IMG/VR virus record: IMGVR_UViG_3300022213_000022
Span: 1-32,279 of that record
From: a virus
Strand: one strand, 5' to 3'
Length of the DNA: 32,279 nt
The notes under the pieces are model-generated. The model was not told the DNA's origin, did not search any database, and worked only from the letters and a program-made list of their open reading frames with translations. Shown here in pieces: positions 1 through 30,208 of this stretch (positions within the stretch are counted from its first letter, which is position 1; the number at the start of each line of letters is the position of its first letter). Made by a program: the position numbers and the translations under genes.

Positions 1-2
1 TA

Positions 3-6493: not shown

Positions 6494-6861
6494 GTCAGAT
6501 TCTCCTGTGCGTAAAGCAACTCTTTGAACTTGTCCACGTCGTCGATCACGTAAACCCATAACCGGACAGCCCGCATTCGTGCGTGTTCTTTCTGCTGCAA
6601 CTCAGTAGGTTTGCCACCAGGCCGTTTGAACTCCACAAAGAATACGTGACCTTCCTTGGCGAAGATGTAATCGGGTACCGACGTGTTACCGGGAGCCGCG
6701 CTGAACTTCCTCGCCCACCAGCCTTTACTTCGGGCGTGCTTGACGCTCGGCCCCTGTATGTCTTTCTCCTTCAACGGCCGTTTCGTCTCTTTCCAGTCGC
6801 TCACGTCGAATGCGTCTTTCACGTTTGAATACCCTGTTCCAGTTTCTTTCGAGAGTGTCAT
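6490..6861 (-). CDS. VRR-NUC domain nuclease
   Basis: 123 residues. The C-terminal half carries the VRR-NUC (PD-(D/E)XK superfamily) signature: GNTSVPDYIF (58-67; catalytic D64), FFVEFKRPGGKPTELQ (74-89; catalytic E77 and K79, then the conserved Q). Stand-alone VRR-NUC proteins are common phage enzymes that cut branched DNA structures and usually sit beside an SF2 helicase, as here. The N-terminal 40 residues are variable. The start at 6861 overlaps the upstream stop as ATGA. Confidence 0.9.
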   Translation of the reverse strand: MTLSKETGTGYSNVKDAFDVSDWKETKRPLKEKDIQGPSVKHARSKGWWARKFSAAPGNTSVPDYIFAKEGHVFFVEFKRPGGKPTELQQKEHARMRAVRLWVYVIDDVDKFKELLYAQENLT

Positions 6862-7061
6862 TGTCCACGAACTGTGGACGGCGTTTGCTGCCTTTGCTCA
6901 CCCGGCTCCTCCCACATTCGAATGTATTTCATGCCGAAGTCGACATCCTTTTCCGGGTAGCCTTCGTCAAGCAACCACTGTCTGAAGTCAGTAACGTCTT
7001 CAGGCAACACCTTGGGAAAGCCGTACCTCCAACCCGAAGGCGGATCGACGAACTTACTCAT
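6858..7061 (-). CDS. Conserved phage hypothetical protein
   Basis: 67 residues, soluble, rich in aromatic residues (SGWRYGFPKVLPEDVTDFRQ, then KDVDFGMKYIRMWEE). The pattern PPSGWRYGFPK followed by a FRQWLLDEGYPEKDV helix recalls a small family found near phage VRR-NUC and polymerase genes, but no function is known to me. It overlaps the downstream VRR-NUC start (ATGA) and the upstream gene by 8 bases, so it belongs to the polymerase-nuclease-helicase translation unit. Confidence 0.7.
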   Translation of the reverse strand: MSKFVDPPSGWRYGFPKVLPEDVTDFRQWLLDEGYPEKDVDFGMKYIRMWEEPGEQRQQTPSTVRGQ

Positions 7062-7221
7062 TTCCTGTAACTCTTCCGATCTTGTTCTCGAGTTCCTGCA
7101 TGATCAGAAACACTTTATCCAACTCGTAGTCGTACTTAGTGCTCGACCACGCAGCAGCAGCAGCAAGCACGGTGAAAACTCCTGCTCCAAACGAAGCCAG
7201 CACAAGTAAAAACAAATTCAT
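7054..7221 (-). CDS. Small single-span membrane protein
   Basis: 55 residues: hydrophobic N-terminal segment (NLFLLVLASFGAGVFTVLAAA, about 2-24), then a charged helical tail (YDYELDKVFLIMQELENKIG). The ATG at 7221 overlaps the polymerase stop as ATGA and is preferred over an earlier in-frame codon inside the polymerase gene. The role is unknown. Its place inside the replication operon could mean membrane tethering of a replication factor (speculative). Confidence 0.55.
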   Translation of the reverse strand: MNLFLLVLASFGAGVFTVLAAAAAWSSTKYDYELDKVFLIMQELENKIGRVTGNE

Positions 7222-9218
7222 TTCCGATACCTCTTCCCACGCCATCCTTCACACTTGACGGGTAATCCGTCAGCCCATTCGAGCGGCACGGTCATCAACC
7301 GCATCGCCTCTTCATCCGATCCGAACCCTTCCGGTACCTCGAACACGCCCTCGTCATGCACGGTAAGGGTGGTTTTATACCCCTTATCCTCCATATTCAT
7401 CAAACCAGAAACTAGTAAGTCTCTACCTATTCCCTCGCAGGCGTTCTGCAACCACTTGCCACCATACGCTGATACGCGCGTCCACTTACGCGAATAGGTG
7501 TCGATACCCATGTAGGTGACTTCTTCACCACGGTCGCCCATCTGCACTTCCGGATCGAGATAGGCGATCCGACGGCCCGAGGGCAGGCGCATGTACAGCC
7601 AGCGCCCTTCAACCTTGAACATGATTTTCTTGTTCGGAATCGCGTACGCCTCGCCTGGGTGCTTGACCGCGTACATCGCCGTTTCGGTCAGGTCGTACCA
7701 CAATTGAACCTGTTCCGAGTTCGCTTCGCGCCACTTGCCGGCGATGTCGGCCGGGTCCATGTTCAGCTTGATACCCATCTGCCGGGCGAACTTCTCGATG
7801 GCAACCGCCCAGCCTTGGTAACCGCAAGCCAACTCGCCGATCTTCGCCGCCGTATAAAGCTGGTCCTCGCCGCTATCGACAACCTCTTCGGGCTTGATAC
7901 CGAACATCAGGGAGCCGGTAGCGTTGTAAATCTTGATCTTGCCTTCACGAAAGAACTTCAACTTCCACTCGGCGCCCGCCAGCCACGCTTGGATGCGTGA
8001 CTCGATCTGCGCGAAGTCGTACGCCATCAGGTCCTTGCCTTCTCCCGCCACCAGCATACCGCGGGTGCAGGAGGCCAGCACCTTCATTACGTCGGTGCCA
8101 TGATACAACCAGCGCAACCAGCCCAAGTTCCGTTCCCGCAGTTCCTCTATCGCATTGTCGGCATCCTTGATCACCGGGCGCATCATGTTCTGGAGCTGGA
8201 CGATGCGGGAACTCCAGCGGCCGGGACCGGCGCCGTAGTATTGCAGCATCCCGTGCAGCCGTCCGTCATCGCAAACGGCGCGCAGCATAGCGTCGAACTT
8301 GGTGACGGCCTTCATGTTGTAAGTGGAGAACAGTCGTAGCAGCTTCTTGATGTTGTCCGGACAACGGCTGTCCTTCACCACTTCGTCAACGGTCGGCGCT
8401 TGCAGGTTTTTAAGCTGCGGATAACCGTTGGCTCTGATCCATTCGGCAAGAGCCCCGGTTTGGGTAGGTTTGTACCCGGTTTGGGTATGACACAGCTCCG
8501 CCAGCTTTTCTTTGTATTCGTCCCGGATCGCCATTGCGTTCTCAACCGATTCGATGTCGACGCCGATACCGCGCTCGTTGATCTTCTGATCCAGGAAGTA
8601 GATGGACTGCTCGCGCTCCGTCAGGTCCGGGATGTGTTTGTCCAAGTCGCGCTCGGCTTTAACGTCGTCGATGCAATACCTGACCAGCGTGATAAACCGA
8701 TCCGTTTCGTCGTACGGCGTGGGGCGGGTACCGTCCTTGCGGGGCTTGGCGAAATAGCGCATCTCGTTCGCCCCGGACTCACGTTTAGGGAAGGTACCGA
8801 GTGCCTTCGCCGCATGTTCCAAGGCTGCCGGCAGGCCGTGGACGGCGGCCTTGGCCATTGTGCAGATTGTATTCTCTATTCTGATATGCGGAACGCTGTG
8901 TCGAATACCGGCTGAATTGTTCAGGACAACTCGCTCGAACTGTGCATTATGCGCTGCTATTTTCGCCTTCTCTACCGTGAGTTGCAGAACTTGCGGTATA
9001 AGATGCCCTTGCAGAAGAGCCCCCTCAACTTCCAACTCCAGCTCGTTGAAAATCTTCTGCGGCAAGTTTTTCCACGGCATCCACACGTTTACCGGGCCGT
9101 CGTCTTCCGCCCAGCACAAGACACTCAGGTCGGTTGAAGGATGTTGCGCATAACGGTACAAGCCCTCCGTTTTCAGGTTGGCTTCGCTGAATGTTTCGAT
9201 GTCGATATGGACTTTCAC
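7218..9218 (-). CDS. Family A DNA polymerase with 3'-5' exonuclease domain
   Basis: 666 residues. The N-terminal proofreading domain has Exo I HIDIET (D6, E8), Exo II AAHNAQFE (N91, E95) and Exo III YCIDDVKAE (Y181, D185). The polymerase domain has GRWSSRIVQLQNM (333-345), motif A AYDFAQIESR (D401, E406), motif B KIGELACGYQG (K459, Y467) and motif C TVHDEG (H621, D622, E623). There is no 5'-nuclease domain, as usual for phage replicative PolA enzymes. It replicates the phage genome with the primase-helicase at 14980-17061. The start is a GTG that overlaps the upstream stop (GTGA). Some phage relatives exist as split genes; this one is intact. Confidence 0.95.
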   Translation of the reverse strand: MKVHIDIETFSEANLKTEGLYRYAQHPSTDLSVLCWAEDDGPVNVWMPWKNLPQKIFNELELEVEGALLQGHLIPQVLQLTVEKAKIAAHNAQFERVVLNNSAGIRHSVPHIRIENTICTMAKAAVHGLPAALEHAAKALGTFPKRESGANEMRYFAKPRKDGTRPTPYDETDRFITLVRYCIDDVKAERDLDKHIPDLTEREQSIYFLDQKINERGIGVDIESVENAMAIRDEYKEKLAELCHTQTGYKPTQTGALAEWIRANGYPQLKNLQAPTVDEVVKDSRCPDNIKKLLRLFSTYNMKAVTKFDAMLRAVCDDGRLHGMLQYYGAGPGRWSSRIVQLQNMMRPVIKDADNAIEELRERNLGWLRWLYHGTDVMKVLASCTRGMLVAGEGKDLMAYDFAQIESRIQAWLAGAEWKLKFFREGKIKIYNATGSLMFGIKPEEVVDSGEDQLYTAAKIGELACGYQGWAVAIEKFARQMGIKLNMDPADIAGKWREANSEQVQLWYDLTETAMYAVKHPGEAYAIPNKKIMFKVEGRWLYMRLPSGRRIAYLDPEVQMGDRGEEVTYMGIDTYSRKWTRVSAYGGKWLQNACEGIGRDLLVSGLMNMEDKGYKTTLTVHDEGVFEVPEGFGSDEEAMRLMTVPLEWADGLPVKCEGWRGKRYRK

Positions 9219-10118: not shown

Positions 10119-10292
10119 TTACGTTCCGACGATCGGAGGGTCGTCGGTTCCCTTTGAACTTTCTTTCCAGTCATGTTCATTATTTTCTGTTTCATTGCAG
10201 TAGTTCGGATCGGATGTTTTAGCTCCGAAAGCAATAGCTAAGGCTAACAAAGCTGCCCGTTTAAAATCCAAACCACAAGCACTACATTTCAT
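10119..10292 (-). CDS. Small CxxC hypothetical protein
   Basis: 57 residues: MKCSACGLDF gives one CxxC pair, followed by a hydrophobic helix (RAALLALAIAFGA) and a polar Asp/Asn/Glu-rich tail. The ATG at 10292 is supported by AAGGAG seven bases upstream, inside the end of the deformylase gene (11-base overlap). No family recognised. A metal-binding dimer or short membrane-associated peptide is possible. Confidence 0.55.
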   Translation of the reverse strand: MKCSACGLDFKRAALLALAIAFGAKTSDPNYCNETENNEHDWKESSKGTDDPPIVGT

Positions 10293-10782
10293 CAGCTTTC
10301 TCCTTTTCAATCGCTTCCGCCATCTTCGCGTAGAAGTCCAGCGTCCGCCCGTTGAGATGATCTATTTCATGCTGGAGCACTCGGGCCACCAGGTCCTTAC
10401 CGCCGAACGTGACAGCTTCCCAGCGTACACTGAAGCCGCGCACCTTGACCCGCTGAAACCGCGGTACGAGTACGCGCTCGTCAGGAAAACTAAGGCACCC
10501 TTCCTCGCCCAGAACCGGACCGCCTTTCCACCAGATAAGTTCCGGGTTGATGATCGCCGCTTTGGTGCAGCCAGCCACCATCACGCCGTTCTTGATAGCG
10601 GGTACCTGGATGACGATGACACGCTTGTTGACGCCTATCTGCGGCGCGGCCAGCCCGATCCCGTTCGGGTAGTCCATTGCGTCGAACATGGCATCGACCA
10701 GATCGCGAGTCTTCTCGCCGAAGGGGACGGGTTCCGCTACCTTCTCCAACTGTTTGTTCGGCCATGTTATTACGCTAGCCAT
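10282..10782 (-). CDS. def: Peptide deformylase
   Basis: 166 residues with all three deformylase motifs: GIGLAAPQIG (41-50), EEGCLS (93-98, metal ligand C96) and LQHEIDHLNG (137-146, HExxH with H138, E139, H142). The enzyme removes the formyl group from N-terminal Met of new proteins. Unlike the shortest phage versions it keeps a C-terminal helix (MAEAIEKEKADE). The ATG at 10782 overlaps the upstream stop; a GTG one codon earlier is an alternative. Nearby translation-related genes are absent, so it may speed maturation of phage or host proteins during infection (inference from other phage deformylases). Confidence 0.95.
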   Translation of the reverse strand: MASVITWPNKQLEKVAEPVPFGEKTRDLVDAMFDAMDYPNGIGLAAPQIGVNKRVIVIQVPAIKNGVMVAGCTKAAIINPELIWWKGGPVLGEEGCLSFPDERVLVPRFQRVKVRGFSVRWEAVTFGGKDLVARVLQHEIDHLNGRTLDFYAKMAEAIEKEKADEM

Positions 10783-11048
10783 CACATCGCATCCGATAAG
10801 TGTTCGTCCACGTCATCGTCGATCTGTTTTTGCAGTCGCCATGCTCGTACCCGCAGTCCGATCGCAACCAAATAAATGACTGCGTTGACGGAAACGGCAA
10901 CACGGATACCCCATTGATCCGGCGTGGTCGAGTACAGGACGAACGGTACGCCGATCAGGGCGATGATAATTCCTATCAGCATCCGGTAGATCGCGGTGAA
11001 AACGAAAAACCCCAGAGCGGATAACGTTATAATTATTTGTTCAATCAT
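10782..11048 (-). CDS. Small membrane protein, two predicted spans
   Basis: 88 residues with hydrophobic stretches at about 4-40 (IIITLSALGFFVFTAIY then GIIIALIGVPFVLY, possibly one or two spans) and about 50-66 (VAVSVNAVIYLVAIGL). The tail is charged (RLQKQIDDDVDEHLSDAM). The family is not recognised. It overlaps its upstream gene by 8 bases and the deformylase by one, so all three are translationally coupled. Confidence 0.6.
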   Translation of the reverse strand: MIEQIIITLSALGFFVFTAIYRMLIGIIIALIGVPFVLYSTTPDQWGIRVAVSVNAVIYLVAIGLRVRAWRLQKQIDDDVDEHLSDAM

Positions 11049-14201: not shown

Positions 14202-14983
14202 TTCAACCCCTTATTCCGTCGTTCCAGGAAGTCCAGCGACACTTCCATCAGGTCGTAATCACCGTTCAGGACTTCATGCAGCATGATCACGCCGCGCCAG
14301 TGATGGTTCGCCTGCGGTCCTTTGTAGTCCTCGTCATGCAGATAGCAACTCCCGGCGATCAACGCCCGTCTGACATCTCCGGTCGACACGTACAGGTTCG
14401 CGTGCTTCAATCCCTGCTGGTGGCCCATCACAAAACTGTGGCCGACGTTCTTCAACCTTGTCTCCGGCATCCCGCCCCACGGATGACCCGTCATAGGGTT
14501 GTAGAAGTAATGCGCGAAGTGTACGTCATTGATGTTGACCGGCTCAAGGAAAGCATGAACCTCCCAGTCATATTTGTCAAGGTTAAAATCGTGGTAGCCG
14601 ATCGTATCCTCGAGGATGGCATCGGCTTGGATAGCACGGTCGATCCGGTTCTCGTGGTTGCCAAGACAAAACACCAGCCGCGGCTTGTACTGCTTGTGCT
14701 TGGTCTCGGCTTGGCGCTTGTTGTAATCGACGAGTGGCGCCATCAGCAAGTCCATCGCGTAATTGCCGGCATTGATATCAGCCCGGTAACGCCTGCCCTC
14801 GAAGCACTTCTTGCCCTTATCATAGGACGACAGGCTCGGCATGTCCCAGTGATCGCCGATATGCACCACCACGTCCGGGCGTTTGTCGACGATATACTTT
14901 CCGATCCACGTAAAGTGATCCATCCTCACACCGGGCTTTGCCTGTGTGTCGGGGATCAGTAGAATCTTGAGACGTTTCTTCAT
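14198..14983 (-). CDS. Calcineurin-like metallophosphoesterase
   Basis: 261 residues from the ATG at 14983, which overlaps the primase-helicase stop as ATGA. Metallophosphoesterase motifs: PDTQ (D12), HIGDHWD (D44), LGNHEN (N109-H110), and later His residues (HFAHYFY and GHQQGLKH) that could complete a two-metal site. Such phage enzymes sit next to primase-helicase and DUF3310 genes and may hydrolyse phosphodiesters or nucleotides during replication. The substrate cannot be read from sequence. Confidence 0.88.
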   Translation of the reverse strand: MKKRLKILLIPDTQAKPGVRMDHFTWIGKYIVDKRPDVVVHIGDHWDMPSLSSYDKGKKCFEGRRYRADINAGNYAMDLLMAPLVDYNKRQAETKHKQYKPRLVFCLGNHENRIDRAIQADAILEDTIGYHDFNLDKYDWEVHAFLEPVNINDVHFAHYFYNPMTGHPWGGMPETRLKNVGHSFVMGHQQGLKHANLYVSTGDVRRALIAGSCYLHDEDYKGPQANHHWRGVIMLHEVLNGDYDLMEVSLDFLERRNKGLK

Positions 14984-17061
14984 AACCAATCTTCCTCTTC
15001 TGCTGCGATCGCCGTCGTCAGCGAAACCTTGTTCCCTTTGTGCAGGAACAGCCACTGGTCCGTGACCAGCTTCTGTACTGCTCGTGAAATCTGTTGCTTG
15101 CGAGTGTCGCGCTTGCCCTTCTCAACTTCCGGCAGGGACGCCACTGCTGCCGATATTACCTCGTCCACTGCCATCGGCTCACCGCCTTTAAGCAATCGCC
15201 TGGCTACGGTCAGCGCGGTCTTGGGGTACAGCCCGGTCGGTTCGACCCGGTTCTTCATCGGCTGCTCTGGTGAGTCAACGTGCTCGATCACACAAGACGT
15301 GATCTCTTCACCGTCCGTGTCAATACCGAGCACCACGGTCCGCAGCTTGAACGACCACTGCCGGCCGTCGCTGCCATCCTTCATCTTGGTCACGGACGCG
15401 GTACGGAAATCACCGTTGCGCGTAATCTCGATCTCGGCGTCCGCCGCGGCCCGCAGTCCGGACCAGCCGCGCGCTCCACGGCTGGCGTCCTTACCGCTAT
15501 GGTGAATCAGCATGACCAGCGCGCCGGTCTTCTTGTGGATGAAGCGGCAGTGCTCTACCACCTTGCCTAAATCCTTGCCGGCGTTCTCGTCAGCACCCGG
15601 TATGGACGCGCTCAAGGTATCGATGACCACCAGATCGGCCTTGCCGAACGCAATGATGGCTTGCGCAACGCCGGCCACATCCTCCACATCCAGCAGGTTC
15701 GGCGTATCGCCTATCACGCCGAACTCGTTCAACTGGATATTATGCTGGACCGCATACGCACGAAGGCGCTGACGGAAGCCGCCGGCGCCTTCTGCACACA
15801 CGTACACCACTTGTCCGGGCACGGATCGATGCCCGCGCCACTCCAACCCGCGGCTGATCGCCGCGCACAGGTCCAATGCCAGGAAAGACTTGCCCGATCC
15901 GGACTGGCCGTACATCACCACCAGTTCTGCCTTGGGCAGTACCGACTTGATCAGCCACTCCATCGACACGTCGGACGCGAAGTCAGGCGCCGGGACTACC
16001 GTGAACTTGGGTCGTGTTGGATTCTCCGCGTTATCTGCGGATATTCCGACATGATTCTCCGCATCCAAGTTCTCAAACTCGTTCAATACCCGCTGCGCCT
16101 GCACTTCTTTCTGCTCGAGTGCGAGCTGGCACATTGCTTTGTAGGACGGGCGCTCGGTTATTGGTTTTTCTGCGTCATCTCCAGTATCTTGGTTACCGAA
16201 GAGATGAAGCCGGACAAGATCGAATGCGTTGTGCTGTCCGTGTGCAGGGTCTGTATTATGGTCTGAATGACCTTTAAGTCCTCCATCGTAAATTCGAAAA
16301 CCGTCTGGTCGGCTACCAAAGGTATAAGTCCACCTCTCTTCCGAGCTTCCAGAAACGTAGGGCAGCTTGAATCGATCGATAACATCAGGAATGCTAAAAG
16401 CGCGACAAAATTGTCCCACGATCCCCGGCTTCGTATCGGGAGCGGGAATATCGTCTCCGGCGATGTAGGCGGAGTCTCCTTGCAGTCGCTTGGGCCACTC
16501 TTTCCGGTCTGTCCAGTCATCGTATTCCTCCAATACCCCATCCACATCCACCCATTTTCCGTCCGTAACCTCGGACCAGAACTCGCCGCCTTTCCGCACC
16601 GAGGGCAAGAACATCATCTGTGCCGGCTTGTCCGACTCGCGCGCCAGCTTCTCGATGTCGCACATCGCCGCTACCTTACGGGTGACCGCACCGAACTCTT
16701 CAGCGGTCACCGGTCTCGACAGCGGAAACACGGCGCGCAGCCTGGGCTTCTCCGGCGTGTGCGATGCGGTCGTGTACAGGATATGCGCCACATCCTTGTA
16801 AGCGTCCCTGATCTCTTCCAAGTCCCACTCGTCGATCTCGTCATAGTCGAACGTAAGACAATGCCGGGCGACCAGGTTCTTGCCGTCCCGGTAGGCCGGC
16901 TCGAAGTGGGCCGGGCAATACCAGCCGGGCTTCGCCTTGTCCTGCGTCTTCATCGGCGCACGGGTTAGGAACTCCACGAATTTAGGCCAGGTTGTTTTGA
17001 CAACCTTGGTGATGGCGGCCAAGTTCTCCTTGGCGCCTAACGATATGACGATATCACGCAT
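14980..17061 (-). CDS. AEP-type primase fused to RepA/KaiC-like replicative helicase
   Basis: 693 residues. The N-terminal third looks like an archaeo-eukaryotic primase/PrimPol: FDYDEID with D72 and D74, then TASHTPEKPRLRAVFPLSRP (98-117). The C-terminal half has a P-loop ATPase of the RSF1010 RepA/KaiC type: Walker A GQSGSGKS (385-392), Walker B VVIDTLS (D481), LIHHSGKDASRGARG (518-532) and a helical C-terminus with a winged-helix-like end (KQQISRAVQKLVTDQWLFLHKG). It would prime and unwind DNA for the family A polymerase. The stop overlaps the metallophosphoesterase start, and the start overlaps the upstream gene by 8 bases. Confidence 0.92.
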   Translation of the reverse strand: MRDIVISLGAKENLAAITKVVKTTWPKFVEFLTRAPMKTQDKAKPGWYCPAHFEPAYRDGKNLVARHCLTFDYDEIDEWDLEEIRDAYKDVAHILYTTASHTPEKPRLRAVFPLSRPVTAEEFGAVTRKVAAMCDIEKLARESDKPAQMMFLPSVRKGGEFWSEVTDGKWVDVDGVLEEYDDWTDRKEWPKRLQGDSAYIAGDDIPAPDTKPGIVGQFCRAFSIPDVIDRFKLPYVSGSSEERWTYTFGSRPDGFRIYDGGLKGHSDHNTDPAHGQHNAFDLVRLHLFGNQDTGDDAEKPITERPSYKAMCQLALEQKEVQAQRVLNEFENLDAENHVGISADNAENPTRPKFTVVPAPDFASDVSMEWLIKSVLPKAELVVMYGQSGSGKSFLALDLCAAISRGLEWRGHRSVPGQVVYVCAEGAGGFRQRLRAYAVQHNIQLNEFGVIGDTPNLLDVEDVAGVAQAIIAFGKADLVVIDTLSASIPGADENAGKDLGKVVEHCRFIHKKTGALVMLIHHSGKDASRGARGWSGLRAAADAEIEITRNGDFRTASVTKMKDGSDGRQWSFKLRTVVLGIDTDGEEITSCVIEHVDSPEQPMKNRVEPTGLYPKTALTVARRLLKGGEPMAVDEVISAAVASLPEVEKGKRDTRKQQISRAVQKLVTDQWLFLHKGNKVSLTTAIAAEEEDWL

Positions 17062-17401: not shown

Positions 17402-17653
17402 CTATACTGTACGTTTATCCAGTATTTCGCACAGTTGACGCCTACTCTTGACGTTCAGTTCCTTCATGATCCGCCGGATGGTCCATCCCAGCGCCTTCAG
17501 TTCCCTAGCCCTGCGCGCCCACCGTGGCTCAGGCGGACGCACGGTGACCCGTACCAGTCGCCAGGCGAGCGGCTGACCTTCGGGCCATGTGACGACCAGC
17601 TTCGTTTCTGGGGCTTCTGGGGCGGTCAGGGGCGTTTTGTCAGTCTTTTCCAC
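17402..17653 (-). CDS. Small HTH-containing protein
   Basis: 83 residues starting at a GTG with GGAGG six bases upstream. The N-terminal half is Pro/Glu/Thr-rich. The C-terminal 35 residues (ARELKALGWTIRRIMKELNV then KSRRQLCEIL) have the length and hydrophobic spacing of a helix-turn-helix, as in resolvase-type or small phage DNA-binding proteins. It could regulate this operon, but that is inferred. Its 5' end overlaps the 3' end of the short zinc-ribbon gene. Confidence 0.6.
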   Translation of the reverse strand: MEKTDKTPLTAPEAPETKLVVTWPEGQPLAWRLVRVTVRPPEPRWARRARELKALGWTIRRIMKELNVKSRRQLCEILDKRTV

Positions 17654-18173: not shown

Positions 18174-18529
18174 GAGTCCTTCTCCGTCAGCGGTCGCGTT
18201 TTGACTTCGCCGCGAGCCTCACGAATCAGCTTGTCGCCAAGTGCGTCGGCCGCTTCGGATACGCCGAACCTGTCCGTGTTCTTTGTCGTCTCGGACAATA
18301 GTTTCATAGCCTCATCAATATGGCTGTCAATGAATGATTCGTGTCCGGGATAGCAGGCTTGCGGAATATGTGGCTGAAGGTTTATTAGGTGGTTGTGGGC
18401 CTTTTGCATTCGTTCCTGTAACTGCTCAATCTCGACTATTGCCTTATGCAGCGCCTCGGCCTCGCCATCGTGATTTCGTGACGCATGGGCTATGTCGGCA
18501 AGGTACTCAATCAAGTCACTCACGATCAT
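18170..18529 (-). CDS. Coiled-coil hypothetical protein
   Basis: 119 residues, helical, with a central heptad-like stretch (EAEALHKAIVEIEQLQERMQ) and His residues. Two starts are possible: the ATG at 18529, with GGAGG only two bases upstream, and a GTG at 18523, with the same GGAGG eight bases upstream (better spacing). Either overlaps the DHH gene's 3' end by 8-14 bases. No family recognised. Confidence 0.6.
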   Translation of the reverse strand: MIVSDLIEYLADIAHASRNHDGEAEALHKAIVEIEQLQERMQKAHNHLINLQPHIPQACYPGHESFIDSHIDEAMKLLSETTKNTDRFGVSEAADALGDKLIREARGEVKTRPLTEKDS

Positions 18530-19448
18530 TCCCTCCGTTCGGCAGTGCATCGAATTGTGCAAGCTGATCGAACGGAACCCGGAAGCCGCTGGCGTGTTTG
18601 TGCCCGCCGCCGCCGTATTGCTTGGCAATCTCGCCTACGTCAGCACCGTCGTCTCGGCTTCTGAGGCTGAATACGCGGCCCTCGGGCGTGTCCCAATAGC
18701 AACCGGCGAACGGGTATTCATCACCACAGAGCAAGTGGCCAGCATCGCTCGTTAGCGTGTAAGGTAGATTCGCCATTGGCACAACTTGCCCGCCTATCTT
18801 CATTGGTCGAGTGACGACCTGAACCAGTTCGGCAATATCCTTGTGGTGCTTGCGCTCGATTGCCGTACCTTCTTGCCGGAGAATGGTGTCGCCAAATTCA
18901 TCGAATGAATCGGCCAGTCTGTCCCATACCTCGAAGTCATACGGATAACTGAATATCGCCGCTTGAACCTGTCGCGTACCGGGAAGCTTGAATCGCCATA
19001 AGTCGCGGTCCTCGATGTGGTCGATCAGTTTTGGTCGCGGGTGGCCCGGATGGAAGTAATCCCATGTGATGCCCGCACCGCTACGCTCCATGTCGAACAG
19101 CGCATGAATAGCGTTCGGTGCGTTGCATTCTCTCGCCCATTGCCGCATGGCTGCGGGGTCGTATGCTCCATCAAGCGGCACCGGAAATCTCGCAAGATCG
19201 TCGGCGGCTGTTTTGTGGTGATCGAGGATCAGCACAGTTTCAGCGGTTTTCCCAATCTCATGGATTACATCGTACTTGTAGCTGAAATCGACCATGATCA
19301 CGTCACGGCCTTTGCAATCGGGTGGCGGCTCTTGGTGAACGCCGGGAAAGAACTCGACGGTTTCCTCGCCTAACGCTTTGCGAACAGCCCATGCGGAACC
19401 GAAGCCATCAGCGCAATTGCCGTGGTAAATACAAAGTATTGGTTTCAT
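18516..19448 (-). CDS. DHH-family phosphoesterase (nanoRNase / pAp phosphatase-like)
   Basis: 310 residues. DHH-family motifs: YHGNCADGFGSA (8-19; H9, D14), VDFS (53-56; D54), LDHHKT (75-80, the DHH triad) and IEDRDLW (145-151). The C-terminal DHHA1-type substrate-binding domain ends with GGGGHKHASG (279-288). The family hydrolyses short oligonucleotides, pAp or cyclic dinucleotides. For a phage it could recycle RNA fragments or degrade host-derived nucleotide signals; the choice cannot be made from sequence. The ATG has a GGAG about seven bases upstream (CGGAGAAATC). Confidence 0.92.
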   Translation of the reverse strand: MKPILCIYHGNCADGFGSAWAVRKALGEETVEFFPGVHQEPPPDCKGRDVIMVDFSYKYDVIHEIGKTAETVLILDHHKTAADDLARFPVPLDGAYDPAAMRQWARECNAPNAIHALFDMERSGAGITWDYFHPGHPRPKLIDHIEDRDLWRFKLPGTRQVQAAIFSYPYDFEVWDRLADSFDEFGDTILRQEGTAIERKHHKDIAELVQVVTRPMKIGGQVVPMANLPYTLTSDAGHLLCGDEYPFAGCYWDTPEGRVFSLRSRDDGADVGEIAKQYGGGGHKHASGFRVPFDQLAQFDALPNGGNDRE

Positions 19449-19469
19449 GATTTCTCCGTTAGTTTGTGA

Positions 19470-19787
19470 CTACCTGAGACACACGCCTTTAGCGATCCGG
19501 TTCTTGATCCGCGTCTTTGCGGCCTTCTCGGCGCGCCGCCTGTATTCAGCACGTTTCGCATTATCGCGGACCGTATCCAGCATATCCTGCGTTGCCGCGA
19601 GCTGTCCGCGCAGCCGTTCCTCTGGCGACTTCCCAGGGTAATAATTCGTGTCACCGCAGACCGTACAGTAAAAGGGCTTGTGGTCCCGTTGCCGCATCGC
19701 CACATGATCGTCCGACAGGTATATGACGTGCCCGCAGCCGATGACCCGGACCGCTGTTACGCCGACTTCATTTATTACGGTTGGCAT
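19470..19787 (-). CDS. Phage zinc-ribbon / coiled-coil protein, C-terminus short
   Basis: 105 residues. FYCTVCGDTNYY (one CxxC) is followed by a long basic coiled coil (EERLRGQLAATQDMLDTVRD, then EYRRRAEKAAKTRIKNRIAK) ending GVCLR. In related phage proteins that I recall, the coil ends with a second CPxC zinc knuckle and about 20 more residues (GVCPCC...); here the stop follows GVCLR, so the protein looks truncated. AGGAG lies six bases before the ATG. Function unknown; DNA- or protein-bridging is possible. Confidence 0.7.
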   Translation of the reverse strand: MPTVINEVGVTAVRVIGCGHVIYLSDDHVAMRQRDHKPFYCTVCGDTNYYPGKSPEERLRGQLAATQDMLDTVRDNAKRAEYRRRAEKAAKTRIKNRIAKGVCLR

Positions 19788-19909
19788 CTTTATCTCCTGT
19801 CTCTGTGTGGAACAAGGGCCGCCGGTTCACCACGTCGCGCTCCTCGGCTTCCCGGTCGTTACCGCGCTTCTACTGGCCCAATTCATTGTCATTTCCTTCT
19901 GTGGTCACG

Positions 19910-20155
19910 CTACGAAAACGTCCTGCGTTTCCAGTTGATAAACTTCTGCTTGACTCGAGTCAGCCAGCCCTTCTTACGTGGCACCGGATTACGGTTCAAT
20001 GCCTGGCGCAGTCCTACCTCGAACTTCTTCGAGCGTTTCTTGTTACTACGTTCAATCCGTTTGGCCAGCCGTTCCATGCGCTCGCGATGGACCTGCTGCG
20101 ATGCCGTTTCCAGATTCTCGGGCCTGTTTCTACTGCCGAACGGTTCTTGTTTCAT
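19910..20155 (-). CDS. Small basic protein
   Basis: 81 residues, very Arg/Lys-rich (ERMERLAKRIERSNKKRSKK, later NPVPRKKGWLTRVKQKFINW), probably helical and nucleic-acid- or membrane-surface-binding. The ATG at 20155 overlaps the upstream stop as ATGA. The 122 bases between this gene's end and the 19787 gene's start hold only a 19-codon frame that I do not call. Confidence 0.6.
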   Translation of the reverse strand: MKQEPFGSRNRPENLETASQQVHRERMERLAKRIERSNKKRSKKFEVGLRQALNRNPVPRKKGWLTRVKQKFINWKRRTFS

Positions 20156-20379
20156 TTCGGGCACTCCACAACGCGGTGAAAATAGTCCCGGCAAACCGAT
20201 TTCCGTGGCTCGGTCTGCGCGGAATATACCGTATAAGTTATAAAAAAGCTGCCGATTAGTAACGCAAGGGTTATTAAAAAGGCGATGAAACCTGGCGACA
20301 AACTTTGCGGACGCTGCCAACGGAAATCGAAGTAAGGCTTCAACGTTACAATCGGATCGTGGTCCCAAGGATTTTTCAT
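20152..20379 (-). CDS. Small membrane protein
   Basis: 75 residues: polar N-terminus (NPWDHDPIVTLKPYFDFRWQ), a single hydrophobic segment at about 30-50 (FIAFLITLALLIGSFFITYTV), and a periplasm-like tail with two Cys (SVCRDYFHRVVECPK). The ATG at 20379 overlaps the recombinase stop as ATGA. Unrecognised family. Confidence 0.6.
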   Translation of the reverse strand: MKNPWDHDPIVTLKPYFDFRWQRPQSLSPGFIAFLITLALLIGSFFITYTVYSAQTEPRKSVCRDYFHRVVECPK

Positions 20380-20966
20380 AACCCGAACTCCTTCTTCAAA
20401 TTGTAGACGGTCTGCCGACTGCACCCGTACCGATCGGCGATAGTGATTACCGACTCACCCAGCTCTAGGGCTAACTCTATTTCGGATTGGGTCTTATCGT
20501 CAAACATTTTCTTGTTGCCCAGCAGCTTGCCCTCGGCCTTGGCCCTGCTCAAGCCCGCTTTGATGCGCTCCTGGATCATGGATCGCTCGAACTCGGCGAA
20601 CACGCCGACCATGCTGAACATGGCCCGGCCGCTCGGTGTAGTGGTGTCCAGCGCCTGCTGGTGCAGATACAGACCCACGTTCGCAGCGTTTAGTTCATTC
20701 AGAATGGCGATCAGGTCGGCCAGCGACCGACCCAGCCGGTCGACAGCCCATGCCGCCACCATATCGAACTCGCCGCGCACGGCAGCTTTGAGCATTTTGT
20801 CTAGTGCGGGTCGCTTGTCCCTGCCCTTGGCGCCGGAGATACCGTGATCTTCGAAAACGGCGGTGATCTGCCAACCGCGCTGTACACACACGTTTTTCAG
20901 TTCGCGTGCCTGGTTGGCCGTGTTCTGTTCGTTGGTACTGACCCGGAGATAAAGGGCGACTCTCAT
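20376..20966 (-). CDS. Serine recombinase (resolvase/invertase type)
   Basis: 196 residues. Catalytic domain: YLRVSTNEQ with nucleophile S10, arginine-bearing AVDRLGRS (74-81), MFSMVGVFAEFERSM with the E-helix start, and QERIKAGLSRAKAEG. A C-terminal helix-turn-helix (SVITIADRYGCSRQTVYNLK) matches Hin/gamma-delta-type DNA-binding domains. The length fits simple resolvases/invertases, not large phage integrases. It may resolve genome multimers or invert a segment; no paired recombination sites could be identified by eye. GTCTAGTG occurs in its coding sequence at 20799. The start overlap (ATGA) puts it in the small-protein operon. Confidence 0.92.
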   Translation of the reverse strand: MRVALYLRVSTNEQNTANQARELKNVCVQRGWQITAVFEDHGISGAKGRDKRPALDKMLKAAVRGEFDMVAAWAVDRLGRSLADLIAILNELNAANVGLYLHQQALDTTTPSGRAMFSMVGVFAEFERSMIQERIKAGLSRAKAEGKLLGNKKMFDDKTQSEIELALELGESVITIADRYGCSRQTVYNLKKEFGL

Positions 20967-21211
20967 GCCGCCCCTCCCATCCCTTTACCTGCTTTCCGCC
21001 CTCGTAGTTTCTCCGTCGTGTTATCCACGCCGATCCAGTACAAAGTCAAGGCACGCTCCAACGTCATACGGGTTGTCGCTGTCTTGCTATGCCCGCCTTT
21101 CCAGCGGATCGTGACAACCAGCTCGGATATGTCATCGACCCGGTTTTGAAGGTCCGTAATCATCTGTTGTGGTGTGTAATTACCGCTGATTATCAGGCTT
21201 TCTACTGTCAT
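20963..21211 (-). CDS. Small hypothetical protein
   Basis: 82 residues, mixed alpha/beta (MTVESLIISGNYTPQQMITD, then ISELVVTIRWKGGHSKTATT), basic C-terminus (TEKLRGRKAGKGMGG). The ATG at 21211 overlaps the upstream stop and the stop overlaps the recombinase start, both as ATGA. No family recognised; its tight link with the recombinase may reflect cofunction. Confidence 0.6.
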   Translation of the reverse strand: MTVESLIISGNYTPQQMITDLQNRVDDISELVVTIRWKGGHSKTATTRMTLERALTLYWIGVDNTTEKLRGRKAGKGMGGAA

Positions 21212-21360
21212 CGTCGGCACCACCATACCGCAAGTCCGATAGCCAATGCCGGCACGGCCCAGGTCAAGGCGAAAAGGTAGTACGACAGTTCCAGCAGCAG
21301 ACATACCATCATCGCCAGCAGAAAAAACGACCACCACAACAAAACGATGTTCAACTTCAT
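21208..21360 (-). CDS. Small hydrophobic membrane protein
   Basis: 50 residues, almost entirely hydrophobic (LNIVLLWWSFFLLAMMVCLL, then LFALTWAVPALAIGLAVWW), two spans. The ATG at 21360 shares a base with the stop of the next upstream gene (TGATG), a coupling signal. The family is unknown. It pairs with another tiny membrane protein immediately upstream (21360-21527). Confidence 0.55.
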   Translation of the reverse strand: MKLNIVLLWWSFFLLAMMVCLLLELSYYLFALTWAVPALAIGLAVWWCRR

Positions 21361-21527
21361 CAGAAGCGGCCCGCGATCCACGCCGCTGTCCAGTACAGTA
21401 AACCTATCCATAATAGCCCCGCAAACATTATCACAAAACAAAGGGAAAGAAACGACGTAAACCGCGTTCGCCGCGGTTCGGTGTACTCCCGAACAAGCCG
21501 GAAAATCTGTCTAGTGCGGATAGTCAT
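21360..21527 (-). CDS. Small membrane protein
   Basis: 55 residues, read directly: a basic N-terminus (MTIRTRQIFRLVREYTEPRR) and one long hydrophobic helix (FLSLCFVIMFAGLLWIGLLY) with a Trp-rich C-terminus. The start ATG lies in the 3' end of the upstream gene (17-base overlap). One GTCTAGTG element (21509-21516) falls in its coding sequence and supplies the upstream gene's stop. Confidence 0.55.
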   Translation of the reverse strand: MTIRTRQIFRLVREYTEPRRTRFTSFLSLCFVIMFAGLLWIGLLYWTAAWIAGRF

Positions 21528-21708
21528 TGGTGCTTTTTTCCTTGCCGTCTATCCATATCCGTTTGAGATAGTTCTTGTAAGACTCCGCCTCAACGTGGAC
21601 AGCGGCATAAGGGTTAGAAGTGCGAAGCAGCACCTGGCGCTTGCCGTAACGTTGCACACGCACAATGTAACGGGTGTCACCGTTGTTCAACGTCTCGGTG
21701 TAGATCAT
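21511..21708 (-). CDS. Small hypothetical protein with QVLLRTSNPYA motif
   Basis: 65 residues, beta-rich (MIYTETLNNGDTRYIVRVQR, then YGKRQVLLRTSNPYAAVHVE). It shares a GK-VL-R--NPYA pattern with the 21896-22219 protein (HGKVLARFKNPYA), suggesting a common ancestor or fold. ATG at 21708 forms an ATGA overlap. Ends with CAC TAG inside the repeated element. Function unknown. Confidence 0.55.
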   Translation of the reverse strand: MIYTETLNNGDTRYIVRVQRYGKRQVLLRTSNPYAAVHVEAESYKNYLKRIWIDGKEKSTNDYPH

Positions 21709-21899
21709 GCCAGCCACTCGTAATCGGCATACGGAACGATATGGTAACGTTGATGCCCGCGTTCGATAGCGTACCGTTCGGATTGCCCGATACGTCCCCA
21801 AAGTTGCGGGTCCTTCGGCTTGCTGTGAACATCGTAGTAGCCGTGTCGTATCAACTCCTGCCTGGCGGCCAATGCCGTCTCATGGTCACGGTATTTCAT
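21705..21899 (-). CDS. Small hypothetical protein
   Basis: 64 residues, Tyr/His/Arg-rich, helical (MKYRDHETALAARQELIRHG, then RYAIERGHQRYHIVPYADYE). ATGA overlaps with both neighbours. No family recognised. Confidence 0.55.
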   Translation of the reverse strand: MKYRDHETALAARQELIRHGYYDVHSKPKDPQLWGRIGQSERYAIERGHQRYHIVPYADYEWLA

Positions 21900-22219
21900 A
21901 TCCCCGCCTTGATAACAGCGACTAACAGAATCGAAAGTAACAGGAAGGCACCCACCGCCCACCAGCCGGACAAGCCGGAAGCCGGTATATTCTCGTCGTC
22001 CAGCCGGAAGTCAGAACGCGCGAATTCATGCCACTTGTCGCCGGCTGCTTCGCCATTGGGCATGGTCGCATAGGGATTCTTAAAACGAGCCAGCACCTTG
22101 CCGTGCTGCAATACGAATATATCCGCTGTCTCAGTGAACAACGGGAAGTGACGGCCAACATACTCAGCCGGTCTAGTGAGGCCAGGCGGCAAAGTGCCTT
22201 CGGGGTGGTATTTAATCAT
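21896..22219 (-). CDS. C-terminally membrane-anchored protein
   Basis: 107 residues: a soluble N-terminal region (HFPLFTETADIFVLQHGKVLARFKNPYATM) and a C-terminal transmembrane helix at about 85-105 (WWAVGAFLLLSILLVAVIKAG), so tail-anchored topology. AGGAGCACTAGACTG precedes the ATG, the shared leader of this cluster. Contains a GTCTAGTG element in frame (22171-22178). Confidence 0.6.
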   Translation of the reverse strand: MIKYHPEGTLPPGLTRPAEYVGRHFPLFTETADIFVLQHGKVLARFKNPYATMPNGEAAGDKWHEFARSDFRLDDENIPASGLSGWWAVGAFLLLSILLVAVIKAGI

Positions 22220-22223
22220 CAGT

Positions 22224-22802
22224 CTAGTGCTCCTGTTTCAATAGCTTATTCACCATTTGCGTCAGTTGTTTGTTTTGTGCCGACCGGGCCGCCGCCAACC
22301 CGGCCGCCGCCAACCAAGCCGACCGGTCCGCCGCCAACCAAGCCGACCGGTCCGCCGCCAACCAAGCCGACCGGTCCGCCGCCAACCCGACCGCCGCCAA
22401 CAGTTCAGCGTCAGTAATCTCGCTCTCTCGCCATGCTCGTGTAGCTGCGATAGCCGCAACGCTTCGCGGATCAGGGTTCTTGATGTTCTTCAACGCTTGC
22501 TCTTCACACCAACAGGCGAACTCATGCAGAACGGTAGAAGCATCAGCCATAGCAATAACGGTACGCTCGGATGCTACCGACTTGTCGTCTTGATGCAGTA
22601 TCCTGCCGCCCAACTCCACGCGACAGACCACGGGGCCAGGCGCATACTTCAAAGCATCAAACAGACGCTTTGTTGCGTGAAAGCCCGACTTGCACATAAC
22701 CAGTGAGTCGGGATCACATTTGAATGTATGGCCGACTCTAACTAACCGGCCATCCTTGTAGCCGAGTTTCTTGTTCTCGGCCAGAAAATGCCACGCTTTC
22801 AT
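22224..22802 (-). CDS. DUF7666-like protein with LAADRSAW tandem repeats
   Basis: 192 residues. The N-terminal 100 resemble the DUF7666 family (MKAWHFL, GYKDGRLVRVGHTF, CKSGFHATKRLFDALKYAPG, GPVVCRVELGG), seen in many phage and prophage proteins. The C-terminal 60 carry three exact LAADRSAW repeats plus degenerate flanking copies, then a Gln/Lys-rich helix ending LKQEH. Repeats of this kind are described in some family members and may form an alpha-helical rod; function unknown. Its stop (CAC TAG) falls inside the RBS leader of the next gene. Confidence 0.75.
   Translation of the reverse strand: MKAWHFLAENKKLGYKDGRLVRVGHTFKCDPDSLVMCKSGFHATKRLFDALKYAPGPVVCRVELGGRILHQDDKSVASERTVIAMADASTVLHEFACWCEEQALKNIKNPDPRSVAAIAATRAWRESEITDAELLAAVGLAADRSAWLAADRSAWLAADRSAWLAAAGLAAARSAQNKQLTQMVNKLLKQEH
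22304..22375. repeat. Three perfect 24-bp tandem repeats
   Basis: Three exact copies of a 24-bp unit begin at 22304, 22328 and 22352, with a partial, diverged copy after 22376. Each encodes one LAADRSAW unit on the minus strand. GC-rich, in frame, so copy-number change would alter protein length without a frameshift. Confidence 0.95.
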
Positions 22803-23197: not shown

Positions 23198-23569
23198 CTA
23201 GCAATAAATCAAACCGTCGTCGCCTTGGTACAAGCACAGTTCCCCATACTTTTCGGCGCTTTTGGTCAATAAGTCGCGATAGCAAGCCGGCCATTCATCA
23301 TCCCGGAATCCAACGCCATGCCCTTGCCGTGTCATATAAAAGTCGTGACCGGCTTGCGCAATCGAATCATCGAAAGCATTCCGGCATACTTCCCCCGTAA
23401 TATAGCACCTAAAGCGGCGCCAGAATGAGCGACAGTCAGCCTCAATATCAAGTCGGCACTCTTCGCTTAGGTCCGCATCCCTGTCCGGCTGGCCGTCTTC
23501 GCCAGTATCGGCGATATAAAATGCTTCGATAAATGCGTCTGTAAAATGTTTTAAGTCTGATTCGTTCAT
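23198..23569 (-). CDS. Conserved phage hypothetical protein
   Basis: 123 residues, acidic (FIEAFYIADTGEDGQPDRDA), with a C-terminal pattern IAQAGHDFYMTRQGHGVGFRDDEW and EKYGELCLYQGDDGLIYC that I recognise from many phage proteins of unknown function (AGHDFWLTRNGHGxGF). Start ATG preceded by AGGAGCACTAGACC. The 78-base leader upstream is a repeat of the one at 25112. Confidence 0.75.
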   Translation of the reverse strand: MNESDLKHFTDAFIEAFYIADTGEDGQPDRDADLSEECRLDIEADCRSFWRRFRCYITGEVCRNAFDDSIAQAGHDFYMTRQGHGVGFRDDEWPACYRDLLTKSAEKYGELCLYQGDDGLIYC

Positions 23570-23570
23570 G

Positions 23571-23648
23571 GTCTAGTGCTCCTATTTTGCCAATACTAAC
23601 CCCAAGGGTATACCCTAGATCGCGTGTCCTGGGGCACTACACGCGGTC
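23571..23648 (-). repeat. Leader repeat copy A
   Basis: A 78-base non-coding leader upstream of the 23198-23569 gene, homologous to 25112-25188: both begin GTCTAGTGCTCCT, then TTTTGCCAATA-TAACCCCAAGGGTA, and end CACGCGGTC, with a diverged middle. Contains a GGGTATACCC palindrome (23607-23616) and a 7-bp hairpin CGCGTGT/ACACGCG (23621-23627 and 23639-23645). Probably a duplicated promoter/5' UTR module. Confidence 0.7.
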
Positions 23649-24900: not shown

Positions 24901-25110
24901 CTAGTGCTCCTTTATCGAACTAGCCGCGTCAAACAGAATCGATCCGCGGTAAGTCCAAATCCGCGCGGCGGCCGTATACGGCGGACCATTTTCTCGCAGT
25001 ACATTACCCCGGTTACGGCATATTTCGGCCAAAGCTTCTATGATATAGGGTAGCCCGAACTGCTCTATTCCTTGCTCCAATACTTCACAAAAGTTCTCTA
25101 CATTGTTCAT
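24901..25110 (-). CDS. Small hypothetical protein
   Basis: 69 residues, helical and Glu-rich (VENFCEVLEQGIEQFGLPYI, ending AASSIKEH). AGGAGCACTAGACA precedes the ATG; its own stop TAG is in the next gene's leader (GAG CAC TAG). Resembles short DUF-type phage proteins of the IEALAEICRNRG kind, unconfirmed. Confidence 0.6.
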   Translation of the reverse strand: MNNVENFCEVLEQGIEQFGLPYIIEALAEICRNRGNVLRENGPPYTAAARIWTYRGSILFDAASSIKEH

Positions 25111-25111
25111 T

Positions 25112-25188
25112 GTCTAGTGCTCCTTTTTGCCAATAGTAACCCCAAGGGTACCCCCGAGAAAATCGATTACAGGGCATCTCACGCGGTC
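25112..25188 (-). repeat. Leader repeat copy B
   Basis: A 77-base relative of 23571-23648 with conserved ends (GTCTAGTGCTCCT and CACGCGGTC) and the same TTTTGCCAATA-TAACCCCAAGGGTA core. It lies between the methyltransferase-like gene and the 24901 gene and contains the methyltransferase stop codon at its far end. Confidence 0.7.
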
Positions 25189-26232: not shown

Positions 26233-26251
26233 GGTATTAGCTCCTCATCAG

Positions 26252-26296
26252 TACCAGCTCTTAAGGCGGCTGGTAGACACTGGCCAGAGCCAGTGT
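26252..26296. other. Two adjacent hairpins between genes
   Basis: TACCAGC/GCTGGTA (26252-26258 and 26269-26275) and ACACTGGC/GCCAGTGT with a four-base loop (26277-26284 and 26289-26296) stand side by side just before the 26232 start. They may be a processing or attenuation site. No U-tract follows. Confidence 0.5.
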
Positions 26297-26305
26297 TTCG
26301 GGCGC

Positions 26306-27426: not shown

Positions 27427-27716
27427 TGTCATTAGCTCCAGTCAGTGAACGGTTACCGTTATACGCTCATTCTCAGGGGAAGCAATTAAATACCTGATAT
27501 CGCTCGCAAGCTATTGATTTTAGGTAGCCCCGATAGCGGATACTTTTCGTAATTTGCGCAAAACGTCTCAAAAACGGCATACCTAAGCCAAAATAATGTC
27601 AAAGTAACCCCATTTATTTTCAGAGCCGGTTTTATCGTGTAAACACGAGCCGGAATAGATAGGTTTACATGAAAATAAATATCCTGGAATATCAATAACT
27701 TATGCTTGAAACATAG

Positions 27717-27976
27717 CTTGCAACACTTGCAACATGGTTTCACGTGCAAGTGTTGCAAATGGTGTTGCAACGTAAGTTATTGATTCGCCAGGGTAAATCG
27801 GCAAGTCGGGCTTATATGTGCAACATCTAATATAAGGGGGTTGTATATACAAGTTAAAACACTGTTGCGGGTGTTGGTTTGCAACACCCCATGTTGCAAC
27901 GTAAATCATTGAAACTTATAAGCTTATGACGGTTGCAACACTTGCAACACGGCTGCAACTGTTGCAAGTGTTGCAA
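27717..27976. repeat. Iteron-like TTGCAACA array
   Basis: Ten exact TTGCAACA boxes (either strand) lie in 260 bases. Block 1: two direct copies, 27718-27725 and 27727-27734, then two inverted ones, 27751-27758 and 27763-27770. Middle: one each way, 27879-27886 and 27892-27899. Block 3: direct 27933-27940 and 27942-27949, inverted 27960-27967 and 27969-27976. Direct copies are spaced by 9 bases. Blocks 1 and the middle end in GTAAGTTATTGA or GTAAATCATTGA. Candidate binding array for an initiator or regulator. Confidence 0.85.
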
Positions 27977-28002
27977 TAGGGCAAAATGGCGTTCTCAACA
28001 GT

Positions 28003-28031
28003 GTCCCCCCACACACTATGTGTGGGGGGAC
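28003..28031. other. Perfect 13-bp inverted repeat, extended to about 19 bp
   Basis: GTCCCCCCACACA and TGTGTGGGGGGAC flank a CTA loop. Beyond it, TCAACA (27995-28000) pairs with TGTTGA (28032-28037) with a two-base bulge. Very stable as RNA or cruciform DNA and readable both ways; no U-tract. Possible bidirectional terminator or insulator between the array and the rightward promoters. Confidence 0.8.
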
Positions 28032-28241
28032 TGTTGAAAGCCAGCGACGCGGATCAGTTGAAAGGATGTCAACACAAGCACACGGCGCGCTGTCCTACCC
28101 TGTGACCATAAGCCCGGCCAGTACGTCACCGTCATACGCTTATAAGGTGTCAACCTAACATGTGTCTGATTGACACGCTGATATGCTCAACATGGCCTAG
28201 CATTTATGCGGCCTACAGCATGGCGCTGCGACCAGGTTACG

Positions 28242-28988: not shown

Positions 28989-29627
28989 ATGTACTCGCAG
29001 GTTAACGGTATAAGCTCGGCGGACTTTCTGGACGACGTTCTGCCGAACGACGAGATAACGCTCGACGACGACTCGTGGCTGGAGATAGAAGCGCCGACCA
29101 CCGGTTTGTCCAAACGGGCTCCCGTGATGCAATCCGGTGGGCAGAATGGCGTCGATCGGATTTGGTGGACCGACGGCGAGTACGTATGGTTCCGTCGTGC
29201 TCAGTCCAATCCTGAGACCTTAAAACGTCATAACGACTTCTGCAAGTCCGGTGACTACCGGCACGTCGAGACGCAGGACGGTGTGGAGATATACCAGCTC
29301 CAGCCGCAATCGCCCTTCGCTGTCAAGAAAACTCTCGATATCGGCCAGATGGACATGTACAACGTCCGGCGCCAAGCGGTCAAAGCGGCCTGCCGGCGCG
29401 ACTGGAAGACCTACCGCGACATCATGATGTTTCTGCGGGAACGGGTGGTGGCGAAGCACGGCGCGAATGCGGCCGGTGCTGAGATGGAGTACGCCGACTT
29501 GTATCAGGCCGTGATGGCGGCCATCGACATGCGCCACGGGCCGTCTGCCAACGAGGTTAACCAAGAGCTGATGGCTCTGGCTTCTAAGGGCAAGAAGACC
29601 GGCTCCATGCTGATATCGGTGGGATGA
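28989..29627 (+). CDS. Hypothetical protein preceding the small terminase
   Basis: 212 residues, soluble. Opens with SADFLDDVLPNDEITLDDD, an acidic segment shared in part with the small terminase start. Contains DRIWWTDGEYVWFRRAQSNP and a helical C-terminal half (NVRRQAVKAACRRDWKTYRD, MAAIDMRHGPSANEVNQEL). No family recognised; location suggests a packaging accessory. No good Shine-Dalgarno precedes the ATG, and the upstream stop lies three bases before it. Confidence 0.65.
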   Translation: MYSQVNGISSADFLDDVLPNDEITLDDDSWLEIEAPTTGLSKRAPVMQSGGQNGVDRIWWTDGEYVWFRRAQSNPETLKRHNDFCKSGDYRHVETQDGVEIYQLQPQSPFAVKKTLDIGQMDMYNVRRQAVKAACRRDWKTYRDIMMFLRERVVAKHGANAAGAEMEYADLYQAVMAAIDMRHGPSANEVNQELMALASKGKKTGSMLISVG

Positions 29628-30208
29628 GCGACTTTCTGGACGATGTGCTGCCTTTGGTTGAAGCGGTACGGGTAAAACCCGAACCGCCGGGGTTGCCGTT
29701 AAAAGCGAAATCCCCTGTTGCCAGTAAGAAAAGCAAGCGGGAGCCTGCTTTAGTCGTTGCAGAACGCAAGTTAAAACCTACCCAACGGTTTTATGCACGG
29801 GCATTACTCGAGTGCGATTCTTACGCGCATGCCGAGCGCGTGATGAAGCTGGCCGGCTATCCTTGTGAGCGTACGACCTTGTATCGCTGGCGCTGTCACC
29901 CCGACTTCGTAAAAGCTTTCAAGCTGATGCAGGCCGAGAAAGTGGAGTCGCTGGTGGTCAACAAGGACAAGATATTGTCCGACGCCGAGAAGGCTAAAGA
30001 GATTGCGCTTAACCCCAAGGCTATTTTGTACAAGGGCGTGCCCACCGGACACGAAGAAGTGAACGTAGGGGCGTATATCCGGGCGCTGGAGCTGCAAGGC
30101 AAGGCGATCGGGGTTGGACAGGACGAGGGCCAGAAGGTGCAGGTTAACATCGACATTGACTACTCCGGCCGTGTGGAAGGCTCCGCCGATGTGATCGACG
30201 GTGGATAA
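29624..30208 (+). CDS. terS: Terminase small subunit (putative)
   Basis: 194 residues. A helix-turn-helix-like segment, FYARALLECDSYAHAERVMK then YPCERTTLYRWRCHPDFVKA (about 56-97), resembles the DNA-binding region of phage small terminases. The C-terminal NVGAYIRALELQGKAIGV (about 146-163) is a typical closing helix of the family. It would select phage DNA for packaging by TerL. Start overlaps the upstream gene (ATGA). It shares an N-terminal DFLDDVLP with the preceding protein. Confidence 0.8.
   Translation: MSDFLDDVLPLVEAVRVKPEPPGLPLKAKSPVASKKSKREPALVVAERKLKPTQRFYARALLECDSYAHAERVMKLAGYPCERTTLYRWRCHPDFVKAFKLMQAEKVESLVVNKDKILSDAEKAKEIALNPKAILYKGVPTGHEEVNVGAYIRALELQGKAIGVGQDEGQKVQVNIDIDYSGRVEGSADVIDGG

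Follow-up and report, generated by a model that had tools for sequence, protein, structure and literature searches.

Gene organization and the primase-helicase

The window, by which we mean the whole 32,279-nt stretch analysed here (IMGVR_UViG_3300022213_000022), is divided into a leftward and a rightward gene block that diverge from a 1.28-kb non-coding gap. The leftward block holds a phage replication set: a SNF2-type helicase and a VRR-type nuclease (both names assigned by inspecting the translations), a family A polymerase, an Enc34-type ssDNA-binding protein (PF10991), a DUF2800 exonuclease and a primase-helicase. The rightward block begins with packaging genes. The gap contains an array of short boxes, and the minimum of the cumulative GC skew falls there as well. 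Because gene orientation confounds skew, we left the latter out as evidence. The features of the primase-helicase are as follows.

14980..17061, minus strand: primase-helicase of 693 aa, made of an N-terminal primase-like part, a RepA-type (RecA-fold, AAA_25) helicase and a C-terminal wHTH; presumed binder of the boxes
15274..15981, minus strand: RepA-type helicase domain, residues about 361-596 (AAA_25, E 2.5e-38)
15010..15231, minus strand: C-terminal wHTH, residues about 611-684 (pLDDT above 90; winged-helix matches; covariation)
15061-15102, minus strand: recognition helix of the wHTH, residues 654-667; putative specificity residues of the wHTH are T653, Q656 and Q657

The closest solved structure to the helicase core is RSF1010 RepA (1nlf, E 6e-11). 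In the full-length model the helicase core and the wHTH are confident (pLDDT about 90 or above); the N-terminal part is modelled poorly, and by sequence it matches phage primase/helicase families. The last 94 residues modelled on their own reach a mean pLDDT of 88.9. Their structural matches are winged-helix domains, which inform on the fold class only, since the best E value is 0.02. The model places residues 653-657 where the recognition helix begins. No RepC match was found among the window proteins scanned, the small ORFs being scanned in part. The primase and helicase parts, fused in the window, are separate genes in two syntenic relatives, G007 (about 2 kb apart across contig ends) and G008 (0.7 kb).

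Elsewhere in the leftward early block, a Type II hammerhead ribozyme lies between two small ORFs (26235-26303, minus strand; Rfam RF02276, 45.7 bits, above the gathering score). A 51-bp direct repeat (92% identical; 23560-23610 and 25102-25150), whose copies border small early genes, is possibly a repeated control element. Two genes represent unusual phage cargo, one peptide deformylase-like (10282-10785, minus strand; by inspection) and the other coding for an SPFH/Band 7 protein (4397-4912, plus strand; Pfam).

Two further contigs, G001 (56,472 bp) and G002, belong to the same phage. The first kilobase of the window (1-1075), and with it the N-terminal portion encoded by the tail-fibre-like gene 662-2584, differs from G001 upstream of 37808, and G001 is otherwise almost identical; the difference is a tail-fibre module exchange. 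A 76-bp piece of a G001 tail-fibre gene (37461-37536) recurs, inverted and 91% identical, at window positions 7076-7151, within a small ORF (7054-7245) that belongs to the replication block. The serine recombinase segment of the window (18435-22261) is absent from G001; in its place G001 carries 1.3 kb of different sequence, after which the contig ends.

The box array

The window contains ten exact matches to TTGCAACA, every one of them within 27718-27976, against a mean of 1.01 and a maximum of 5 per whole window in shuffles. The array is identical in G001 and G002 and consists of the following elements.

27718..27770: left half of the array, four boxes TTGCAACA, two direct (+27718, +27727; 9 apart) and two inverted (-27751, -27763; 12 apart)
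27680..27795: imperfect 116-bp palindrome with the left half at its centre, 75% identical to its own reverse complement (minus-strand self-match, E 6.6e-13)
27771..27932: spacer between the array halves, 40.7% GC versus 54.2% for the window; candidate unwinding region
27879-27899: single inverted box pair inside the spacer (+27879, -27892)
27933..27976: right half of the array, boxes at +27933 and +27942 (9 apart) and at -27960 and -27969 (9 apart), a perfect 17-bp inverted repeat
27995..28037: GC-rich hairpin adjoining the array, GTCCCCCCACACA-CTA-TGTGTGGGGGGAC, perfect stem 28003-28031 (DNA fold z -5.6)

A preliminary description of this DNA had reported ten boxes far above chance, laid out as two direct copies 9 bases apart and two inverted copies, this design being used twice with a single inverted pair in between. 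The count and the layout both hold, and so do all the coordinates but one, the first box starting at 27718 and not at 27717. Its remark that the array lies next to AT-rich DNA is fair, but the enrichment is modest, as the GC values of the spacer indicate. Degenerate near-copies of the box occur at about 27819 and 27954. The helicase gene is 10.7 kb away from the array.

Direct and inverted copies are common in operators, the array sits in the divergent control region, and a weak promoter-like site is present between its halves, all of which would suit an operator array serving a transcriptional regulator of divergent early and late promoters. However, promoter-like sites are no commoner here than in shuffles. 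Moreover, the small HTH protein 17402-17653, which had been put forward earlier as an alternative binder, has no homologue in eleven relatives and was rejected as the binder of the boxes for this reason. Considering also that most relatives have their array 3' of the helicase gene rather than at a divergent promoter, and that the box word follows the helicase wHTH (see below), we regard an operator as unlikely. The helicase may additionally autoregulate at the same boxes.

Arrays in related phages

A similarity search with the array region found no DNA match in phage and plasmid records, because the box word changes between lineages. The exact three-box pattern was found in viral contigs of the same phage only, and in genome contigs it had four matches. 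Three of these (L152, L153 and L155) looked like chance and were dismissed. The fourth, L154, is an archaeal contig (Acidiplasma aeolicum) with a dense array of about 29 copies of TTGCAACA in both orientations (179-806) and sugar-transferase-like genes; no helicase was seen beside the array, and we set the contig aside as unrelated. Relatives were also sought via the terminase, which gave too few contigs spanning the array region. The relative G003 was of no use for this region because the ends of its contig fail to span it.

The preliminary description had held that relatives lacking the array at this place would speak against its reading. The three closest whole-genome relatives, which share gene order with the window phage, each carry their array where the window does, immediately to the left of the rightward packaging genes, and their box words differ:

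G007, 6768-7060: word TGGAGCA
G008, 1703-1812: word TGGGTCC
G009, 44807-44958: word TGGTGCA

The left half of the G007 array (6768-6811) has the --++ design common to the window, with the box TGGAGCA, and is followed by a spacer and then by a right half holding the hairpin CCCTTTAGGGG. The right half in the window (27933..27976) is the counterpart of the right half built as 'two direct, hairpin, two inverted' in relatives. This placement of the array away from the helicase gene is shared with the window by few close relatives (G007-G009).

A wider set of relatives was obtained with the helicase half of the protein as the query, which found 79 viral loci; the non-redundant helicases with downstream sequence numbered 53. 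An array, defined as at least six mixed-orientation copies no more than 700 bp after the helicase gene, is present in 33 of the 53, compared with 7 of 394 control segments (Fisher p 2.7e-29). About a third of the relatives have no array after the helicase gene; some of them carry one elsewhere, and in others none was found. In many loci the array starts ~27 bp past the helicase stop codon and uses one short word in both orientations, in the approximate layout -27 -36 -47 +62 -89 -98 [CCCCTTTAGGGG] +120 +128 (the sign gives orientation, the number bp after the stop codon). This common pattern, - - - + - - [CCCCTTTAGGGG] + +, covers about 105 bp. The word itself varies by lineage and includes GTTGCA, GGTGCA, GGAGCA, GTGGCA, GAAGCA and others.

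A CCC(C)TTTAGGG(G) hairpin also lies inside many of these arrays. Its strict pattern follows 21 of the 53 helicase genes and occurs in 3 control segments, with one control taken per locus. The array of the window has no such internal hairpin; a different GC hairpin sits outside, alongside it (27995..28037), and is possibly the counterpart of the one in the relatives.

Nine cultured phages with related helicases were checked, and in seven the helicase gene is immediately followed by an array: CRP-811, CRP-823, CRP-831, Rhizobium 16-3, Alteromonas XX1924, Salicola CGphi29 and Idiomarinaceae 1N2-2. The other two, Caulobacter GB2A and Microcystis Mae-JY30, have none at that position, and in GB2A none was found at all. 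None of the cultured-phage annotations shown names an origin at the array position.

The location of the array in the window, about 1.6 kb upstream of a putative terminase small subunit gene (29624-30208), could be taken to indicate a packaging site (cos or pac) recognised by that subunit, the more so as the arrays of the syntenic relatives are near packaging genes too. Yet most relatives have the array immediately behind the helicase gene, and it is with the helicase that the box covaries, a pattern that can be explained without the terminase. A packaging site is therefore very improbable.

Covariation of the box word and the recognition helix

Across dozens of related phages, the box word and the helicase wHTH change together. 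In the alignment, the helicase C-terminus has the motif GKRDTRKQX, where X is His with the word GGTGCA and usually Arg with GTTGCA. Since this pattern was first noticed by eye, we tested it by a column scan. Among all columns of the helicase half, box letter 2 is tied most closely to the one that corresponds to window Q657 (MI 1.08, z 10.8, the next being 5.6). This column is still first, with z 11.8, when only the two commonest words are used and the window clade is removed. The strongest tie to box letter 3 is that of the T653 column. These permutation z-scores ignore relatedness, for which the tree test corrects, albeit on a small sample: in a tree made with the wHTH columns left out, about 10 changes of His657 are counted, and the independent pairs with branch support are 6 for and 0 against, one being tied (p 0.03 by sign test, from the starred branches alone).

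The rule was also tested on a second search that provided 42 loci from contigs not used before, although several closely duplicate one another or loci used before, so that not all are independent. His657 goes with GGTGCA in 5/5, and Arg, Lys or Val at 657 goes with GTTGCA in every locus with a callable array. Five Arg loci among the 42 show no clear word, four lacking an array and one with a tie in the 6-mer count. Other words are found in loci that have Asn or another kind of helix (KGN type); for words other than GTTGCA and GGTGCA, orientation and register were set by hand. Gln657 of the window is unique among the lineages used, and the rule linking residue 657 to the word was tested on pairs with other residues there. 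That the C-terminal domain probably recognises its cognate repeats is read from the covariation of residue 653 with letter 3 and of residue 657 with letter 2.

A further reading is a resolution site (res) for the phage serine recombinase. The protein encoded at 20376-20966 is a resolvase/invertase-type serine recombinase with an HTH, one inverted box pair covers 26 bp, like a crossover site, and G007 and G009 have distant homologues of the recombinase. However, the gaps between the boxes of inverted pairs vary (10, 16 and 5 bp), unlike those of a fixed dimer site, no recombinase homologue was found in G008, G010 or other array-bearing relatives, and the box word follows the helicase, not the recombinase. 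We consider a res site highly unlikely.

A probable replication origin, proposed to be read by its own helicase

In our view, the array is very probably the replication origin of the phage, with its boxes bound by the C-terminal wHTH of the phage's own RepA-type primase-helicase. At the level of sequence and structural models, this is suggested by the array itself, its repeated association with the helicase, the conserved layout with a changing word, the two-letter covariation and the confidently modelled wHTH. The preliminary description had proposed iterons for a replication initiator, perhaps a fused primase-helicase, and this proposal gains support from the arrays that accompany the helicase family and from the covariation of the word with the recognition helix.

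If this is the case, the wHTH of the primase-helicase would bind the 8-bp boxes one by one, and their mixed orientation and spacing would position several helicase subunits at the site. The hexameric RecA-fold helicase would then reach its own origin and be loaded there with no need for an initiator protein of the RSF1010 RepC kind, and the duplex would open within the AT-richer spacer. Priming would come next, perhaps at the nearby GC hairpin, by analogy with the ssi sites of RSF1010. All these steps, namely helicase binding, loading, opening and hairpin priming, as well as the origin activity as such, are what we infer.

More generally, it seems likely that these phages represent a widespread, previously undescribed replicon class, in which a RecA-fold RepA-type helicase has its own origin-reading wHTH. 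In this class the layout would be kept while the word shifts in step with two or three residues of the recognition helix, making the word predictable from the protein. Few environmental phages have a known origin; should the proposal be true, the helicase gene would show where the origin of a large phage group lies, and a few helicase residues would suffice to predict its word. A RepA-type replicative helicase that recognises its own origin would merge the roles of RSF1010 RepA and RepC. In addition, the family would offer a natural series of matched protein-DNA pairs, in which one could follow how an initiator and an origin stay matched while both change.

Comparison with known replication systems

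We found no description of RepA-type helicases reading their own origins in the literature searched; since most subscription journals were outside the coverage, this is weak evidence of absence.

The P4 origin has short repeats in both orientations, and the P4 alpha protein has a C-terminal winged-helix origin-binding domain. P4 alpha unites primase, helicase and origin binding in one polypeptide, and the 693-aa protein of the window, with its RepA-type core, its wHTH and a poorly modelled N-terminal part that matches phage primase/helicase families, may be built likewise. The helicase of P4 alpha is SF3-type, whereas the core in the window is RecA-fold RepA-type; moreover, in some close relatives of the window phage the primase and helicase parts are in separate genes. 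The primase of P4 alpha is of the Toprim type (PMC4234260).

In pRN1, a stem-loop origin is found downstream of the gene for the primase-helicase ORF904, which has a C-terminal winged helix, and the sequence conservation of the origin is low while its structural conservation is high (PMC4234260). The phages described here resemble it in having the putative origin 3' of the primase-helicase gene, in the C-terminal winged helix and in the low-sequence, high-structure conservation of the origin.

SaPI Rep and SCCmec Cch2 are initiator helicases acting at iteron origins; short repeats are recognised by their C-terminal domain, and self-loading has been proposed for them (PMC7581432). They share with the family described here the putative C-terminal repeat recognition and the proposed self-loading, and both in SaPIs and in most of the relatives the helicase gene is immediately followed by the known or putative origin. 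In the window itself, unlike in the 33 of 53 relatives, the repeats do not directly follow the helicase gene. Furthermore, the helicases of SaPI Rep and Cch2 are of the DUF927 or D5/Primase_Cterm kind, whereas that of the window has the RecA-fold RepA-type (AAA_25) core.

RSF1010 replicates with RepA, RepB' and RepC and an oriV with ssiA and ssiB, the repeats being bound by the separate RepC (PMC4234260). The window helicase is RepA-type by both sequence and fold, and the strong hairpin near its repeats recalls the ssi primase sites. In contrast to RSF1010, where RepC is a separate protein, the wHTH is fused to the helicase in the window phage, and the boxes are 8 bp long and of mixed orientation. 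The helicases of SaPI/SCCmec, P4 alpha and pRN1, for their part, are of another type than RepA. Repeat-recognising C-terminal domains on helicases are already known, and what appears to be new here, judging from sequence, is a RepA-type helicase in that role.
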